Source: Cephalotus follicularis
Lineage: Eukaryota; Streptophyta; Magnoliopsida; Oxalidales; Cephalotaceae
Assembly: GCA_001972305.1 (NCBI GenBank)
Contig: BDDD01000310.1
Span: 181,305-245,304, forward strand
Reading direction: 5' to 3'
Length of the DNA stretch: 64,000 nucleotides
Positions 7,549 to 18,820 of the stretch are shown in pieces. Positions within the stretch are counted from its first letter, which is position 1. Each line of letters opens with the position of its first letter. The position numbers and the translations under genes were made by a program. The notes beneath the pieces were generated by a model. The model was not told where the DNA came from. It saw nothing but the letters and a program-made list of their open reading frames with translations, and ran no database searches.

Positions 7549-10500
7549 TCATATGATCCAAGAGCGACATAATACACCAAAGAGTAGCTTGCGGATCTCC
7601 AAGAAGAAGAAACAACCGGTGAGTATACCGAGCAAATGAAAGTGTCGAGGCATCCCTACATAATTAAACCAAAATTACCACTTGAGTGGCTTCTTTTCAA
7701 AATAACTTGGTTCATATTTGTAAGCAATTATCAGACAGAATAATAAACTGAGATATGTACTAACAAGGTATGGAAAGATGGCATAATTATTCCAAAAGGA
7801 AAAACGGGGGAAAAGGGTGTTAAAATTTCCGGAAACATTATCGATATATTATCTAAATAGTGCAAGAAGAAAATGACAACTTAATTTTGCAATCGATAAG
7901 ATGCATACCAAGATTACAAATTTACCACCCTGCCAACTGTAGTGCACATGTACAAACGGTAATGTGCACAAACATACACACTATGAGAAACCACAAAATG
8001 AAAATAACTCTAATGATAAATGGGCATGAAATAATGTTCTAGGATCAGGTCCAAACTGGAAGTACTATGGAGTTTTTCAAGTGACTTGTAGAAGTTTTCA
8101 CTTTTTCAATACTTGAAAAAAGAAAGGACATCAAACATAGGGTTCAAGCATTAAAAATGATCCACCATAATGGAGTCCTATACATGGGCTTACTTCTTAT
8201 TAATCAAATGATATGATCAGGATATATAAAAGAGAAGAGCATCTGATTACAATATGTTAAGTACTTCTTTAGTCCTCAGATATGACTAATAAGGACATGG
8301 GGTATAGAAAATGACTCTGTCATTTCAAAAGATAAAAGACAACAATAATTATGCTCCTTTATATTATCTCTCTTCGGTATGATAATCTGAATAAAAAGTA
8401 ATCACACTAAATGAGTAATCGACACTGAATATAATATAAAGAAGGGCATAATTATCATTCATCGTGGAAATTACCACTGGAAGTTTTTACGGAATACAAA
8501 GTCCAATCTTGCATCCAGAGAATTCTCTAAAACAATCTTTCCATCTCGTGGGGCCAACACTACACCTCCAGGGCTGCATAAGAAAAAGAAAAGTTGTTTC
8601 AATAACATTGTTTAAATTAGCAACCCAAACTTAACCTTAGCCCTAACCGCCTGGTCATTAATCAATAGCCCCATAAAATGATTGGGGAACCTTACAAGCA
8701 TACTCTATAGGCCAGCCAGATCACTCTGTAATATCTCATATAGTCCCATTCAAGCAGTTATTGATGCATGAAAACGAAAAGAAGTCCAACTAATTCATAA
8801 ATTTCAATTTAAAGCATGCAAATTACCAGTAGGGATCATGGGCATGATGATGGCTAGGAGAAGGTAGCAGAGACATGATGGTCAACAATTATCTTCGGCT
8901 GATGAACATTAACTTTCTCTGCATATTCCTCCTTTGCAGAATCCAGAACAGAATCCACCAAATCCAGGTCATCCTCCTGACAGCGCAACAATACAGCAGG
9001 CTCATTCAGTCTGAGCAAACACTGCAACACATAACCATTGCACTTTTTTCAAAAGAAAATAAAATCCAGAAGTGTATGTTTGGGCATCTCTTAATAATCA
9101 ATCACATCTATCCGTTATTTTTTTTGTCCTGTCATAACATCTAAGGCAACCATCTAATGTCACTGTGAGATTAGTTATGCAAAAGATGCGTCTAATATGG
9201 TTGCATTTTCTCAAATATCACAAATGAAGTAACTAAGTCCTATGCCATACATATATGTGAAATGTAGCTGGAACTTCAATCATTAAAGTGTCATGAATTT
9301 CAGCAATCTCTATAATATAATATGGAAGCCCTCAGAAATATATTCAGAAGCATGACATGTAAGAAAACCATAACAAACTGGTAACAGCACAAGGTCCATA
9401 CATTGACACATATTTCTTAACAGACAAACAAAGCAAATTCAATTTCAGTTTTTACTGACCTGAACAATGAGATCTTTCAGAAGCTTCCTGTACACATGGT
9501 GATCACGGCTCACATTCAGAAGTTCCTTCGATGTTGCCTCTTTTATGGAATTAACCACATCATCTTGAGCTTGAAGAAGTTTGATCCGAGAAGCATTGAG
9601 CTGCATGGAGTACTCACTTCAACCAAACCAAAACAACAAAAAATTATTATTTACAGTACCTGATCTAATTGAAACTACAAACAACCAATAAACTCATTCA
9701 CATTTCATACCAATTAAAGACAGACAACCAGTTAAACTTTGCCCAAAAATTCCTAGCACGAGATTTGGATACCCCCGATTCAATGCCAACTTTTTGCCTC
9801 AATTCAGATCAAAAGGGCTGTTCAGGGTAGTATCCATTGATATTGGAAATAAATCAACTTCAGCAATAACAATCAACTATCAACATAAAGAAAAAGTAAA
9901 GTCAATTTCAGCAACAAGAATCTCCACAATGGAACACACACAAGCAATTAAATCCATATAAAAATCAACACAATGATTCAAATCGCAACAAAAGCTAGTC
10001 ACTTCTAAGTAATTAATTAGGAGGGAAACAAAAACATATAGAAGCAGCAAAACAATTTCAACCAGAAAACCCAAAATGAAGATGACTAAAAGCATTTATA
10101 AACTAATAAGCAGAGAGATTCTTCCCAATATGAGGATCGGGAGTATAAGATTTCCCTTGGTATAAGAGCTAGAATCTACAAGATTCCAAACGGAAAGCAT
10201 AGGAAATGAGAAGTGAGATCTTTGCGGCATAACTCACTGATTTTCCGAACTATCAACGGTGTGTACAAATATATGAGTAGAATTCAGAAACTTACATTTT
10301 CTTTCGAACCTCAACTTGCTTTTGTTTACGCTCATACTCTTGCCAGATCTTCTTCTTTTCGGCCTCAACTAGTCGCAACTTCTGTAAACAAGAAGTTAGA
10401 TCGTGTTCTAGCAAACTGGAATGGCATAATCGCTTCTCTTTTAGTGTGGCTCATTTCCATAATCTAGGTGTCTCGGATCACTCTCCGGTTGCAGTCTCTT

Positions 10501-13500
10501 TAATGGATCGAAGGAGTTCAGGTAACAAGCCTTTCAAGTTCCTCAACTTCTAGGTAAAGGATGCTCGATTTATGGGCCTTGTGAACCATGTTTGGAAACA
10601 CAAGGTAGTTGGCAACCCGCTAGAATCAGTTTTATGTAAACTCAGGAACCTGAAAAGAGAGCTCAAGTATGTTTTTGGTAAACCCAACCCGAGTCCTAAG
10701 AGGGAGGCTCTTAGGGTGGAGTTAGATAGCATTCAAGCTAACCTCCTATCCGCCCCGTCAGATGCCGACCTTCTCCTCTAGGAAAAATTTCTTCTGTCCA
10801 AGCTGTGAAAAGCCAAAGAGGAGAAGGAGTCCTTCCTTAAGCAAAAGTCGCGTATTTCCTGGCTTAGGCTTGGGGACTCCAACACCAAATTTTTTCATAG
10901 ATCAGTTTCTGCCCTGCATCATAGGAATCACATTGGTAAGCTACAAAGATCTGACGGCAGCTGGCTGACTTCCTCATCTGAGATTGAGCAAGAAAGTGTT
11001 ATGTTCTTTAGAGGGCTCCTTGGGGAGCAGGGTCCTCCGGTCTCCTCCGTGTTTCAGCAGATGTATTCAAAGAAGCTAACAGAAGAACAAAAGGTGTTGT
11101 TGGGCAGGGGTATCTCGGAAGAAGAAATTAAGCATGCTTTTTGGGCTTTCAAACCTGACAATTCTCCGGGTCCGGACGGATTTAATGGGTTTTTCTTTAG
11201 GTCCGTGTGGTGAATTGTGGGAAGTGACGTCATAGCAGCTTGTAAGTTTTTCTTTGCTCATCCTTACATGCCTAAGGGGCTAAATGTTACTATTATCACC
11301 TTGGTGTCGAAATCGAAGAACTCTTGTAGCATGCATGATTTCAGACCCATCTCTTGCTGCAACTTCCTCTACAAAGTTCTGTCCAAGATTATAGCAGACA
11401 GACTCAAATGCTTCCTTGTTGATTTTGTGGATCCTGCTCAAACCGGCTTCATTCCAGGAAGAGTCATTAGAGACAATGTGCTCATTACACAGGAGTTGCT
11501 CAAGGGCTATGGTCAGAAAGGAGGTGTTCCCCATTGTGCCATCAAGGCAGACCTAAAGAAGGCCTATGACTCTATCAGCTGGGACTTCATTCTTCACCAG
11601 CTTAACATCATAGACTGCCCGCACCATGTCATTTCTTGGATCCAAGTCTGTATCTCCACCCCTCTCTTCTCAGTGGTGGTAAATGGTTCTCTCTGTGGTT
11701 TCTTTAAAGGGAAAAGAGGGCTTAGGCAAGGTGATCCGATGTCTCCCTTCCTTTTTGTGTTGGCCTTGGATGTGTTTTCTAGCTACTTGAAGGTTGTGTC
11801 TGCCAAAGAGGGCTTCTTGTTCCATCCTAGATGCAAGAGAACTGATATTACCCACCTGTTGTTTGCTGATGATATTCTTATGTTTTCTCAAGCGGATATT
11901 CATTCTGTGAATCTCCTCCTTGAAGGCATGAACCTCTTTTTAGAAGCATCTGGTATGAGCTTGAACCTTAGTAAATGTCTTGCAGTTTTTGGAAGTACCC
12001 CGAACAGGATCATGGAACAGATATGTGGCTCTCTGCGCTTCCAACCGGGTTCTCTCCCGGTAAGGGATCTTGGTCTCCCTCTTGTTTCTAGGAGGCTCTC
12101 AGTGATGGATTGCAAGTGCCTCGCCTTGAAGTTGGTAGATAAGATTCAGTCCTGGACCAACAAATGCCTGTCCTACTCAGGAAGGTTGCAGCTCATTCAG
12201 GCAACCCTGCTCGGTATTCAGAATTTCTGGATTAGCAATGCAATCCTTCCCAAAGCGACCTTGCTGCAATGTGAAAAGATTATGAAGACGTTCTTGTGGT
12301 TGGGGTCTGCGGTTAATAGGAGAGCTAAGGTCCCTTGGGCCACTGTTTGCTCTCCCAAGGCAGAAGGGGGGCTTGGAATTAGAAGGGTAATAGATTGTAA
12401 CAGGGCGGCTATGTTGAGGCTGATTTGGGATATCCTACAGGATAGACCTTCGCTATGGGTCAGGTGCAGCAAAGCAGAGATCCTAAAGAACTACTCCCTT
12501 TGGCAGGTGGAGCGTAAACAGTCTCTATCTATCACCTGGAAGTTTCTACTGGATCTCAGAGCTCAGGCAGTAAAAAATTTGGTATACTCTATTGGTAGCG
12601 AGTCCTCATGGTCCACTTGGCATGAACCTTGGTTCCAAAGTACAACGCTGGTTTCAAGGGCTATTTATGAATCGGGGCTTTCTCGAAATGCCTCTCTCGC
12701 TGAGGTTATCGCTGACTCGGCTTGGAACTGGCCTGCAAATGTGAGTCAATTGAGGGAAATTAGCCTAGCTTGTGAGGGCATTCCTATAGGGCAGTGTGAT
12801 TCCATCGATTGGCAAGCCAAAGGCCGGTCTTTCTCCTCCAAATTGGCTTGGGAGGCCGTTAGAGCCCAGCACTCGGAAGCCCCTTGGGAAAAATCTGTCT
12901 GCTTCCCTGGAGCTATTCCGAAGCATTCCTTTTGTATGTGGCTCACCTTTCACAAGGAGCATAGCACATTGGATAAGCTGCAGAGGCTTGGTATTGTACA
13001 GAGCAACCAATGTCCCTTCAATTGCGGTTTTGATGAGTCTATGAATCATTTGTTTTTTGAATGTCCCTTCACTAAAGCTGTGGGAGTGAAGTGTTGAAGC
13101 TTAACAATTGCCCATTCCCTTCTGTGTGGAGCTGGGAAAGCATGGCTTCTTGGGCCTTGGGGCGCACCAAAGGCAAGCGGTTCCATTGTAGGATGAGAAG
13201 ACTTGGGCTCGCCGCAACCATTTATCATTGCTGGAGGGAGAGGAATAACAGGGTTTTCAGGCAAACGGCGTATTACCTTCGATGTTGGAAGGAAAGCTTC
13301 TACCTGCAGGTATACTTTAGACTCTCCAACCAACAGAGCCATTGCAGAGAATTGGAAAATTGATGAAAGCGTATTTAGTAGGTCCAGTTTAGCGACTGGT
13401 TAGGGGTTCCGTATCGCCTTTCTAATGGAAGTATGGCTTGCAGGTGGTATGCTTGGCTTGCTGCCCCTGTTACATAGGTGTTTTGTCCAAGTTTTTGCGG

Positions 13501-14350
13501 GTTTCTTTTTGGTTTTTTGGTTGTATCTGGTTTTTGGCTGCTCTGGTTGTTTGCAGGTTCTCCCATTGTATTGGGTGACTTGGTTTTTTTTTTTTGGGCC
13601 TGCGTTTTCCTGAGGGTTTTTTTAACAGTGGTGATTATACTTAGAAAGAGTAATGCTTGATAAAAAGAGTATTGTTTGATAGCAAGACAGATTAGTTTTG
13701 GTTTTTGGCCCTTTCGGGATTTGTTTGTTTCCCTCATGGCTGCAGCATTTGTGGCGTTTTTGCCTGCTTGTAAAGGGAAGACATATATACCCCTTTTTCT
13801 CTATCTAATCAATATATATACTGAACTTTTCCAAAAAAAAAAAAAAAACCGTAACTTCAACAAAAATACCAAAATCGTCCTCCATAAACAATCATTTTCT
13901 ATTGACACAAAATCAATCAATCATTTACAATAATAAATAAATCAAAGTAAATTGTGTGACATAAATTACAAAAGTCGTTATCATACAGCACTAGTTATAT
14001 TAACAAAAATCCGCTACAGCACGAAACCGATCAAAATTTTCAAAATCATAGATAACAAAAAAGCCGCGAAATCAACATATATGCAACTACTCATAATTGA
14101 TTCAACAGAAATAACACTCGCTTTAACATAAATTCCAAAATCGTCCTCAATAACACACTCAATTGATTAAAATTTACAAAAATCATAGATTATGAAAAAA
14201 ACAGTGTAAACAACAAATCGAAGAGAGTTGAGTGAAAACGGTGCGTACTTCTTCAGCGAAAACGGAGATCTCGTTGAATTTCTCTTCAGCTTCTTGACGG
14301 ATGAACCTCACCATCTGCTGGATCTGCTTGGAGACATCTGCGTCGTTCAT
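7549..14350 (-). pseudogene. VHA-E: V-type H+-ATPase subunit E, decayed copy with LINE-filled intron 1
   Basis: Subunit E is a peripheral-stalk protein of the vacuolar proton pump. Exons on the minus strand are 14350-14249 (MNDADVSKQIQQMVRFIRQE...), 10381-10296 (KLRLVEAEKKKIWQEYERKQ...), 9616-9460, 9021-8827, 8573-8475 and about 7596-7549 (IRKLLF..., TGA). The order and sequence match plant VHA-E (about 230 aa). Several faults point to a pseudogene. The conserved EFNIE segment between exons 1 and 2 is missing at the LINE junction. Exon 4 is one base too long after VDHHV and runs into TAG. Exon 5 appears one base short near FRKN, with a displaced donor. The tail reads FGVLCRSWII rather than FGQVAA. 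Most splice sites are still good, so decay may be recent or partly assembly error. A TATA-like box lies near 14412-14419. Confidence 0.8.
10384..13848 (+). mobile_element. 5'-truncated LINE (L1-type), ORF2 remains
   Basis: The left end starts in the tail of the endonuclease domain (KKLDRVLANW, then VSDHSPV in another frame). The main open frame at 11217-13097 holds the reverse transcriptase: RPISCCNFLYKVLSKI, GFIPGRVIRDNV, KADLKKAYDSISWDF, GLRQGDPMSPFLF and the catalytic FADDILMFS. It is followed by a zinc-knuckle-like zf-RVT tail with CPFNCGFDESMNHLFFECPF. ORF1, most of the endonuclease and an RNase H domain are absent. Upstream coding is split over several frames, with a stop near 11213, so the copy is dead. 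It ends in a 16-A tail (13833-13848). CGCAACTTC (10374-10382) and CGTAACTTC (13850-13858) look like a diverged target duplication. It lies antisense to the host gene. Confidence 0.88.
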
Positions 14351-15831: not shown

Positions 15832-18820
15832 ATGGAGGATATAGTTGAAAATTTATTTGATATTCCGGTGCAAGATCCACCAGAGGAGGATTTCTCTTTC
15901 AACGATTTGACTTGGACCAAATTCGGCACTGTTGAGCACAATGATGATGTGGCACTCATTCCTTATGCACGAGTTGATTCATTTATTATTGGAGAATGCT
16001 CTAACGTAGAATGTCCGACACGGTTTCATATCGAGAGGGGAAGAAAAAGAGAAACTGGTAGCTTGAAGGAGTACAAGGATGATGAGTATTTGGAATATCG
16101 GCAGTAAGTTACTCACTTGTTATATTACTTTTGCTACTTTCGTCATTATTTTGTTTTTCTTCTATGTTTATTTTGCATGTCATTGACTGTATATAATAAT
16201 GCAGTTCCAACATGCATCTTTAAAATTTACAGCATTTGTGATTCTTTTATCAGGTTCTCAACTTAGGAACTTGTTTTTGACTATGACTCTTGCCGTGTCA
16301 ACTATTTTACATTTTCAGAATCTAAGACATTTATAAGTTGGCAACAGGAGACTGGATACCGGAAACGTATATCGTAGGAAAACTTTGGGAATTCTTATCT
16401 TGTTCTGTTTCAGTTACTCTTAAATTTGAAGTGAACACTGTAACAGATATGTGACACCTTGCTATGTATGACCATGCATTTAAACGTAATATTTGTCTGG
16501 CAACTTGATATATGGGGCATTGAGCAGTACGGGTTTAGATGGTAATAAAAGGATATAACTTTATCCTTCATACTGGAATGGAATTTTCTTAAAGCTAAAC
16601 TAAGCTCTTATGTTGATTTTCGTCTTCAATGGTGAAGGTATTGGTGTTCTTTTGGTCCTGAAAATTATGGGGAAGGTGGAGAATTATTGCCTAGTCGAAG
16701 ATATCGACTTAACACTAGAAATCGTGCTGCTAGACCTCAATCCATGCGAGGCTGTACATGCCACTTCGTAGTGAAGCGCCTTTATGCTCGTCCATCACTT
16801 GCACTTTTAATTTACAACAACAGGCGTCATGTAAACAAATCCGGTGTTGTCTGCCATGGGCCACTTGATCAGGATGCCATCGGCCCTGGTGCCAAAAAAA
16901 TTCCATATATTTGTAATGAGATTCAGCAGCAAACAATGTCTATGATCTATCTTGGCATCCCTGAAGAGAGCGTCTTGGAGAAACACATTGAGGGGATTCA
17001 ACGATACTGTGGTTCAAATGCAAATGTCAATAGCCTTGCTTCCCAGTATGTCCAGAAACTATGGATGATAATCAAACGGTCTAGCCATGAATTGGATCTT
17101 GATGATCAAGCTAGCATCCGGATGTGGGTCGAACGCAATAAAAAATCCATATTCTTTTATCAGGATTCTTCCGAATCAGATTCTTTTATCCTGGGAATTC
17201 AAACAGAATGGCAGATGCAACAAATGATTCGTTTTGGGCATCGAAGTCTCATTGCAGCTGATTCGACATTTGGCATAAAGAGGCTTAAGGTAATCCATGC
17301 ATAAATCATCTTTTGCACAGAATTTTATAAACTATGGACGTGGGAATTAATGAAATGATCTGTTTGAATGGCAGTATCCCTTGTGTACGCTTCTTGTTTT
17401 TGATTCGAGACAGCATGCCCTGCCTGTTGCATGGGTCATCACACGTAGCTTTGCGAAGCCAGATGTGGCCAAGTGGATGAAATCTCTAGTTGATCGAGCT
17501 CGTAGTGTAGATCCAGGATGGAGGATCAGTGGATTTTTGATTGATGATGCTGCGGCTGAGATTGATCCCATAAGGCAGGACCCTCTTGCTTGGAGGCTTC
17601 TCTTCATTGAAGTAACCATGATTTTGCGCACATTCTTATATCTTGTACTGACTGGTTTTTCAGGGATATATTTGGTTCTCCTGTACTCTTCTCCCTCTGG
17701 CGTGTTCGTAGATCATGGCTGAGGAACATTGTTAAAAGATGCAGTAACATTGAAGTCCAAAGGGAGTTATTTAAATGTCTGGGTAAATTAGTCTACAGCA
17801 TTTGGGGTGGTTTTGATACGCTGATTGCTTTGGAAGAATTGATTCACGATTTTGTTGATCAAACAGCCTTCATAAAATATTTCAAGGCATCTTGGGTGCC
17901 TAAGATTGGTTAGATCTCTCTCTCTCTCACATAGACACTGACTGACAACCACACGCATGCACTCACTGCATGGAATTGCCTTGCAATTTGTGTCTATTCT
18001 AATTGTTGTTAGTTTTTGTTTAACAGATATGTGGCTTTCAACAATGAAAACTCTTCCACTTGCAAGTCAGGAAGCATCAGGTGCCATAGAAGCCTATCAT
18101 GTTAAGCTGAAAGCCAAGCTGTTTGATGATTCACATCTTGGTGCGTTTCAGAGAGTTGACTGGCTAGTGCACAAGCTGACGACTGAGTTGCATTCAAGCT
18201 ACTGGCTTGACCGCTATGCAGATGAAAGTGATTCATTTCAAAATGTCAAGGAGGAATATATTTCTTCTACATCATGGCACAGGGCTTTGCAAATTCCTGA
18301 TTCTGCTGTTACCTTGGATGATAAGGACCATCTATTTGCCAAAGTTTTAAGCCAGAAAGACGGCAGTTTAACACATGTGGTTTGGAATCCTGGATCAGAA
18401 TTTGCTTTCTGTGACTGTGCATGGTCAATGCAAGGAAACCTTTGTAAGCATGTCATCAAGGTTAACATGATTTGCGAAAATCATCAAGGTTATCAACCCT
18501 CCATGTCTATGCAGTCATTCAAAGAGATAGTAATGAATCTATTGAAAAAACCAATAGACGACTCAGTTGCACTAGATCAGTCAGTGGCCTGGACCCACCA
18601 GATACTTGATCAAATTAAACAACTCGTTGAACTGAATAGTTCAAACGATATTGGGACTGTGGTTCATAGGATGCCACTAAAATGGGTTTCTAAGAAAGTA
18701 AGAACATCTGTTGGAATACCATCATCTACCCTAGCTTTTCTATCTAGTTCCAAGAGTACAAAGAATGCCGTTGCTAGTAGAAAAAATCGAAAGCGAAAAA
18801 GGTTATCAAGATTGAGATAA
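15832..18820 (+). CDS. SWIM zinc-finger protein derived from a MULE transposase
   Basis: Exons 15832-16103, 16638-17289, 17375-17574, 17664-17908 and 18027-18820 join into an open 720-aa frame. From memory it closely matches the single-copy plant family of Arabidopsis At1g60560. An N-terminal region (ECSNVECPTRFHIERGRKRE, then RGCTCHFVVKRL) precedes a MULE-type transposase core with candidate acidic residues at ADSTFGIK (about 300), LIDDAAAE (about 365) and SGAIEAYH (Glu478). A SWIM zinc finger, CDCAWSMQGNLCKH (about 585-599), follows, then a basic tail (RKNRKRKRLSRLR). There are no terminal repeats, and there are introns, so this is a domesticated host gene, presumably nuclear. The start is chosen at MEDIVENLFDIP, just inside an exon with acceptor near 15779. 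Intron 3 (17575-17663) uses a GC donor. Leader exons probably lie at about 14690-14769 and 14896-15009. Confidence 0.9.

Follow-up and report, generated by a model that had tools for sequence, protein, structure and literature searches.

A truncated LINE at the missing exon 2 splice acceptor of a V-ATPase subunit E gene copy in Cephalotus follicularis

Our data suggest that a redundant copy of the gene for V-ATPase subunit E (VHA-E) in Cephalotus follicularis was probably knocked out in one step, by the insertion of a LINE with concomitant deletion of target bases. The window, which is the whole stretch of 64,000 nucleotides analysed here (contig BDDD01000310.1, positions 181,305 to 245,304, forward strand, assembly GCA_001972305.1), carries this gene on its minus strand, and an L1-type LINE lies antisense within intron 1, with its 5' end adjoining exon 2 (Table 1). 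Relative to LINE-free copies of the gene, 22 to 26 bp are absent from the window at this point, the range reflecting two-base overlaps at both ends, and with these bases the native acceptor and the five codons for the residues EFNIE are gone.

Table 1. Features of the VHA-E gene copy and its LINE (window positions)
Feature	Position	Strand	Basis
VHA-E exon 1, ATG to ...AEE, donor GTACGC	14249..14350	-	tblastn, exon table
3' junction of the LINE, A-run against native intron CCGTAACTTC, 2-nt AA overlap	13847..13860	-	LINE-free copies
Plant L1-type LINE, judged 5'-truncated, antisense to VHA-E, in intron 1	10384..13846 (about)	+	copies elsewhere in the genome, Pfam, A-run
LINE-derived tract upstream of the acceptor, GATCTAACTTCTTGTTTAC, with candidate CTAAC branch site	10384..10402	-	sequence, AG-free distance, base counts
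AG of the present exon 2 acceptor, a 2-nt overlap (CT on the plus strand) of LINE 5' end and gene	10382..10383	-	LINE and gene copies
Remaining exon 2 (KLRLVEAEKKK...), without EFNIE codons	10296..10381	-	comparison with LINE-free copies
Exon 3; acceptor 9617-9619 is AAG	9460..9616	-	paralogue alignment
Exon 4; 2-bp deletion between 8870 and 8871, frameshift, nearby stop	8827..9021	-	paralogue comparison
Exon 5; 1-bp deletion in the run 8484-8488	8475..8573	-	paralogue comparison
Exon 6 remnant; acceptor GGAG; 27 nt including the stop codon gone	7575..7596	-	paralogue comparison, 27 nt by eye

The junction at exon 2 and the missing bases

Several VHA-E copies are present in the 1.58-Gb genome, with a close group on the contig of the window (C310) and on C524, C4482 and C4184, and a more distant copy on C4122. 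The paralogues C524a and C4482a have complete open frames, and in both of them each of the five introns begins with GT and ends with AG. The protein of C524a matches the family vATP-synt_E (PF01991, E = 2.2e-69; Pfam), which is also matched by the readings of exons 3 and 4 in the window (E = 1e-9 and 6.1e-10).

The empty site was reconstructed from LINE-free paralogues of the same genome, as a stand-in for an allele or orthologue. In the LINE-free copies, which likely retain the arrangement from before the insertion, the acceptor TTATTTTTTAG is followed by GAATTCAATATTGAG, encoding EFNIE, and then by AAGTTG. On the minus strand, the LINE-free copy L002 reads GAAGTTACGG TTATTTTTTAG GAATTCAATATTGAG AAGTTGCG, and the window reads GAAGTTACGG, a T run, the LINE and ACAG AAGTTGCG. 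The absence of EFNIE at exactly this point had been noticed in the preliminary description, which had also named a relative that has no LINE but lacks the same residues as evidence against a role of the LINE. Among the paralogues of this genome, where we looked for such a relative, the codons are kept in seven of the eight distinct LINE-free exon 2 copies of the close group and in the distant copy on C4122; the eighth (L007) has diverged upstream of AAGTTG. As far as the paralogues can show, we thus reject the idea that EFNIE was missing before the LINE arrived.

The proposed coincidence of the LINE boundary with the start of exon 2 was borne out. Seven of the eight LINE-free exon 2 matches terminate at position 10383 (that of L007 at 10381), and the LINE copies, read by eye, match the window from 10382-10383 (CT) onward. 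At the junction, the plus strand of the gene reads CGCAACTTCTCAATATTG, that of the LINE copies GGTAACTTTGCTGTAAACAAGAAG and that of the window CGCAACTTCTGTAAACAAGAAG; the junction sequences compared were GCTGTAAACAAGAAG / GCTGTAAACAAG for the LINE copies, CTTCTCAATATTG / CTTCTCAATATT for the gene and CTTCTGTAAACAAGAAG for the window. Many LINE BLAST matches run on to 10377, at the price of a 2-nt alignment gap in the LINE, because AACTT is common to LINE and gene there. Since the gene accounts for the bases up to 10383 without a gap, we placed the junction at 10383; if the LINE end is taken to have lost 2 nt, it could sit a few bases deeper in the exon.

The two overlap bases were the end of the last lost codon in the pre-insertion gene. 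The matching stretch starts with CT in 22 of the 29 other LINE copies scored, so that an AG is common at this point of the family's antisense strand; among the seven copies that lack the CT start is L041, whose match is spurious, this stretch being deleted.

The LINE and the mode of its insertion

Domains of the LINE were recognized within window positions 11214-13097 (RVT_1, E = 2.2e-37; zf-RVT, E = 1.2e-16; Pfam), and its 3' A-tail is present as an A-run at 13833-13848. The family is dispersed and multicopy, its 5' part being found in at least 40 places of the genome, the window included, a lower bound obtained by scoring 40 out of 142 candidates. The end of the LINE was located with the help of 29 other copies. 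The endonuclease domain was searched for in L039, a longer copy than the truncated one of the window; upstream of the reverse transcriptase, L039 contains an endonuclease domain of the apurinic type (Exo_endo_phos, E = 8.1e-11). The window LINE begins within the last part of this region, the domain being mostly cut off, and all 14 other plus-oriented copies inspected by eye show LINE-like sequence upstream of its start point. Judged against these relatives, the window LINE appears to be 5'-truncated.

The end branch of the window LINE, in a tree built from 30 LINE rows, amounts to 0.051 changes per column, which we take as an upper bound on the age of the LINE. The intron branch of the window gene, obtained by arithmetic from three-way distances, is about 0.048. 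Comparison of the two values indicates that the insertion may date back almost to the gene duplication.

A target-site duplication is usual for an L1-type LINE and is not required for a truncated copy; at this locus, no such duplication was found and bases were lost instead. We infer that a 5'-truncated L1-type LINE inserted near the end of intron 1 of the redundant VHA-E copy by target-primed reverse transcription, in an event that would have cost the native acceptor tract, its AG and the five EFNIE codons without generating a target-site duplication. The truncated end would have been joined to exon 2 over the 2-nt overlap CT, which by chance would have provided a new acceptor-like site, in frame with exon 1, with its AG. 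The window copy would now be a pseudogene, whose residual transcripts may splice at the new site while no longer serving a working gene.

Alternatively, the LINE may have arrived with an ordinary target-site duplication that left the native acceptor intact, and a later deletion over the 2-nt overlap may have taken the 5' part of the LINE, one copy of the repeat, the native acceptor and the EFNIE codons. Such a history, which we consider unlikely, would agree with a 5' junction that, taken alone, is compatible with any end joining at a 2-nt overlap, and with the further 5' extension of LINE copies elsewhere, but it requires an extra event, whereas truncation together with target-site deletion in one step is reported for L1 from a HeLa assay, as cited in PMC2912911.

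The candidate acceptor and the probable decay of the gene copy

The present exon 2 acceptor, TTGTTTACAG on the minus strand, consists of antisense LINE sequence with its AG at the junction, as had been proposed. What had been put forward as an antisense LINE stretch taken over as a 3' splice site was found in its anatomy: the T-rich tract and CTAAC come from the LINE, the AG is shared, and the frame with exon 1 is kept. The nearest earlier AG lies 24 nt upstream (10 to 56 nt in the ten acceptors of C524a and C4482a), and pyrimidines occupy 12 of the 17 positions from -20 to -4 (9 to 15 in the same ten), so that by these crude measures the candidate would be no weaker than the native sites. The CTAAC is private to the window LINE copy, as the 28 others scored read TTGG, CTGG or CTAG and the TTAG of the window occurs in none of them. 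The distance from its candidate branch A to the end of the AG is 14 nt, which is short for a plant branch site. Splicing via this acceptor would hold the frame into exon 4 and then meet a premature stop, according to the exon table. We regard the candidate acceptor as plausible, in frame and probably unused.

Lesions are found along the rest of the gene as well. The window copy has no intact frame, with frameshifts in exons 4 and 5 and its stop codon lost; its exon 3 acceptor reads AAG, in contrast to CAG in all five aligned paralogues, and its exon 6 acceptor GGAG, in contrast to GCAG in C524a and C4482a. Substitution rates were obtained from a three-way comparison of the window with these two paralogues over exons 1 to 5 and the introns between them, from which C524b, C4184 and C4482b were omitted as incomplete or rearranged. 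Substitutions private to the window number 28 in 641 exon positions and 78 in 1755 intron positions (Fisher p = 1.0); those private to C524a or C4482a, taken together, number 10 in 1282 and 62 in 3510, respectively (p = 0.011). Nonsynonymous changes make up 17 of the 28 private exon changes of the window, compared with about 22 expected without selection (p = 0.026), and this shortage implies constraint on part of the window branch, which also spans the time before the insertion, so that the constraint may have acted before or after it. The window copy is most likely dead. As for the alternative raised earlier, that the insertion deleted the start of the exon and killed the gene, the missing bases, the further lesions and the change at the intron rate speak for it; the priority of the insertion over the other lesions is the part that we infer.

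A less likely course, compatible with a single insertion with target deletion and adding a working phase to it, is that the LINE-derived acceptor was or still is used, the antisense LINE providing branch site, T-rich tract and AG. Subunit E without EFNIE would then have been made for some time before the later lesions. The exon rate of the window branch, which equals its intron rate, argues against such use, as do the two frameshifts with a spliced product that ends in exon 4, the restriction of CTAAC to the window copy, the short distance of its branch A, and a five-residue loss that would be expected to shift the coiled-coil stalk. The in-frame junction, an AG distance and pyrimidine count that both fall within the paralogue ranges, and the mild shortage of nonsynonymous changes point the other way, and mouse makes use of antisense L1 acceptors, as described in PMC2176070. 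That one insertion swapped the native 3' splice site for an antisense-LINE one, with the repair overlap as its AG and with EFNIE lost, and that the gene ran on this new site before it decayed, is in our estimation doubtful.

A true 9-bp target-site duplication in a gene that lacked EFNIE beforehand is very improbable, since the nine-mers that flank the LINE, CGCAACTTC (10374-10382) and CGTAACTTC (13850-13858), are both native and formerly close neighbours, EFNIE separating the intronic GAAGTTACGG from the exonic GAGAAGTTGCG in L002, and since seven of eight distinct close loci have EFNIE. The apparent target repeat of the preliminary description does not survive this comparison; with up to one mismatch, the nine-mer occurs 12 times in the window against 7.9 expected, a count reached by 16 of 100 shuffles. 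As this case illustrates, two similar sequences native to a locus can pass for a target-site duplication.

Related insertions and other VHA-E copies

The Karma LINE of the mantled variant of oil palm is reportedly an intronic plant LINE that supplies a 3' splice site, and its effect is said to be tied to loss of methylation. The window likewise holds a plant LINE in an intron together with a 3' splice site; unlike in Karma, this site is a candidate, and the native acceptor itself is gone. A limited search of the open-access literature for a plant LINE that replaces a native acceptor returned none.

The window case appears to fit two known kinds, namely, truncated L1 insertions with target deletion and antisense L1 splice sites. 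For the former, PMC2912911 cites a HeLa assay in which the target sites of truncated L1 insertions were often altered, deletions included, and a microhomology-joining model for the 5' junction; the collection of that study itself covers only target-site duplications of 5 to 30 bp. The human 5'-truncated L1 insertions considered there share with the window a truncated 5' end, an A-tail, a short 5' overlap and the loss of target bases, but the window has a plant L1-type element, and its lost bases hold a splice acceptor and five codons. For the latter, antisense L1 splice sites in mouse were seen in cDNAs and lead to exonization, according to PMC2176070. As in the window, an L1-type element within a host gene offers acceptor-like sequence on its antisense strand; in the window, however, the site is a candidate, and the LINE gives only intron sequence up to the AG.

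What distinguishes the present case is a coincidence, in that the two overlap bases happen to be the AG of an acceptor-like site that is in frame and takes the place of the lost one. To about two bases per end, it offers a readable example of an L1-type insertion into a plant gene in which target bases were lost and the splice acceptor was replaced. Since intact copies remain in the genome, knowledge of the V-ATPase is unchanged.

Several observations concern the surroundings and relatives of the gene. Beside it, at 16636-17304 on the plus strand, lies an open frame of 222 amino acids that has no Pfam match at E 0.001 and that we take, from a MULE-like impression, to be transposase-like. Near two paralogues, a second copy of exon 1, with an in-frame stop and in opposite orientation, lies upstream of the exon 1 that belongs to the gene, at a distance of about 1.3 kb (L017, L019, L029 and L034; about 20590-20694 on C4482 and about 634807-634908 on C524). 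The window has a single exon 1, and its stretch 14197-15624 matches the inverted copy on C524 and the accompanying sequence at 87%.

Further partial VHA-E copies with exon 2 are L007, L008 and L028. L007 departs from the close group upstream of exon 2, and both L007 and L008 depart from it about 70 bases past the donor, which gives the impression of moved or captured fragments. Finally, L005 (C4184) and L006 (C4482) have a stop in exon 3 in common and are followed after this exon by the same unrelated sequence; by the shared stop and shared following sequence, they look like older pseudogene copies of one origin.
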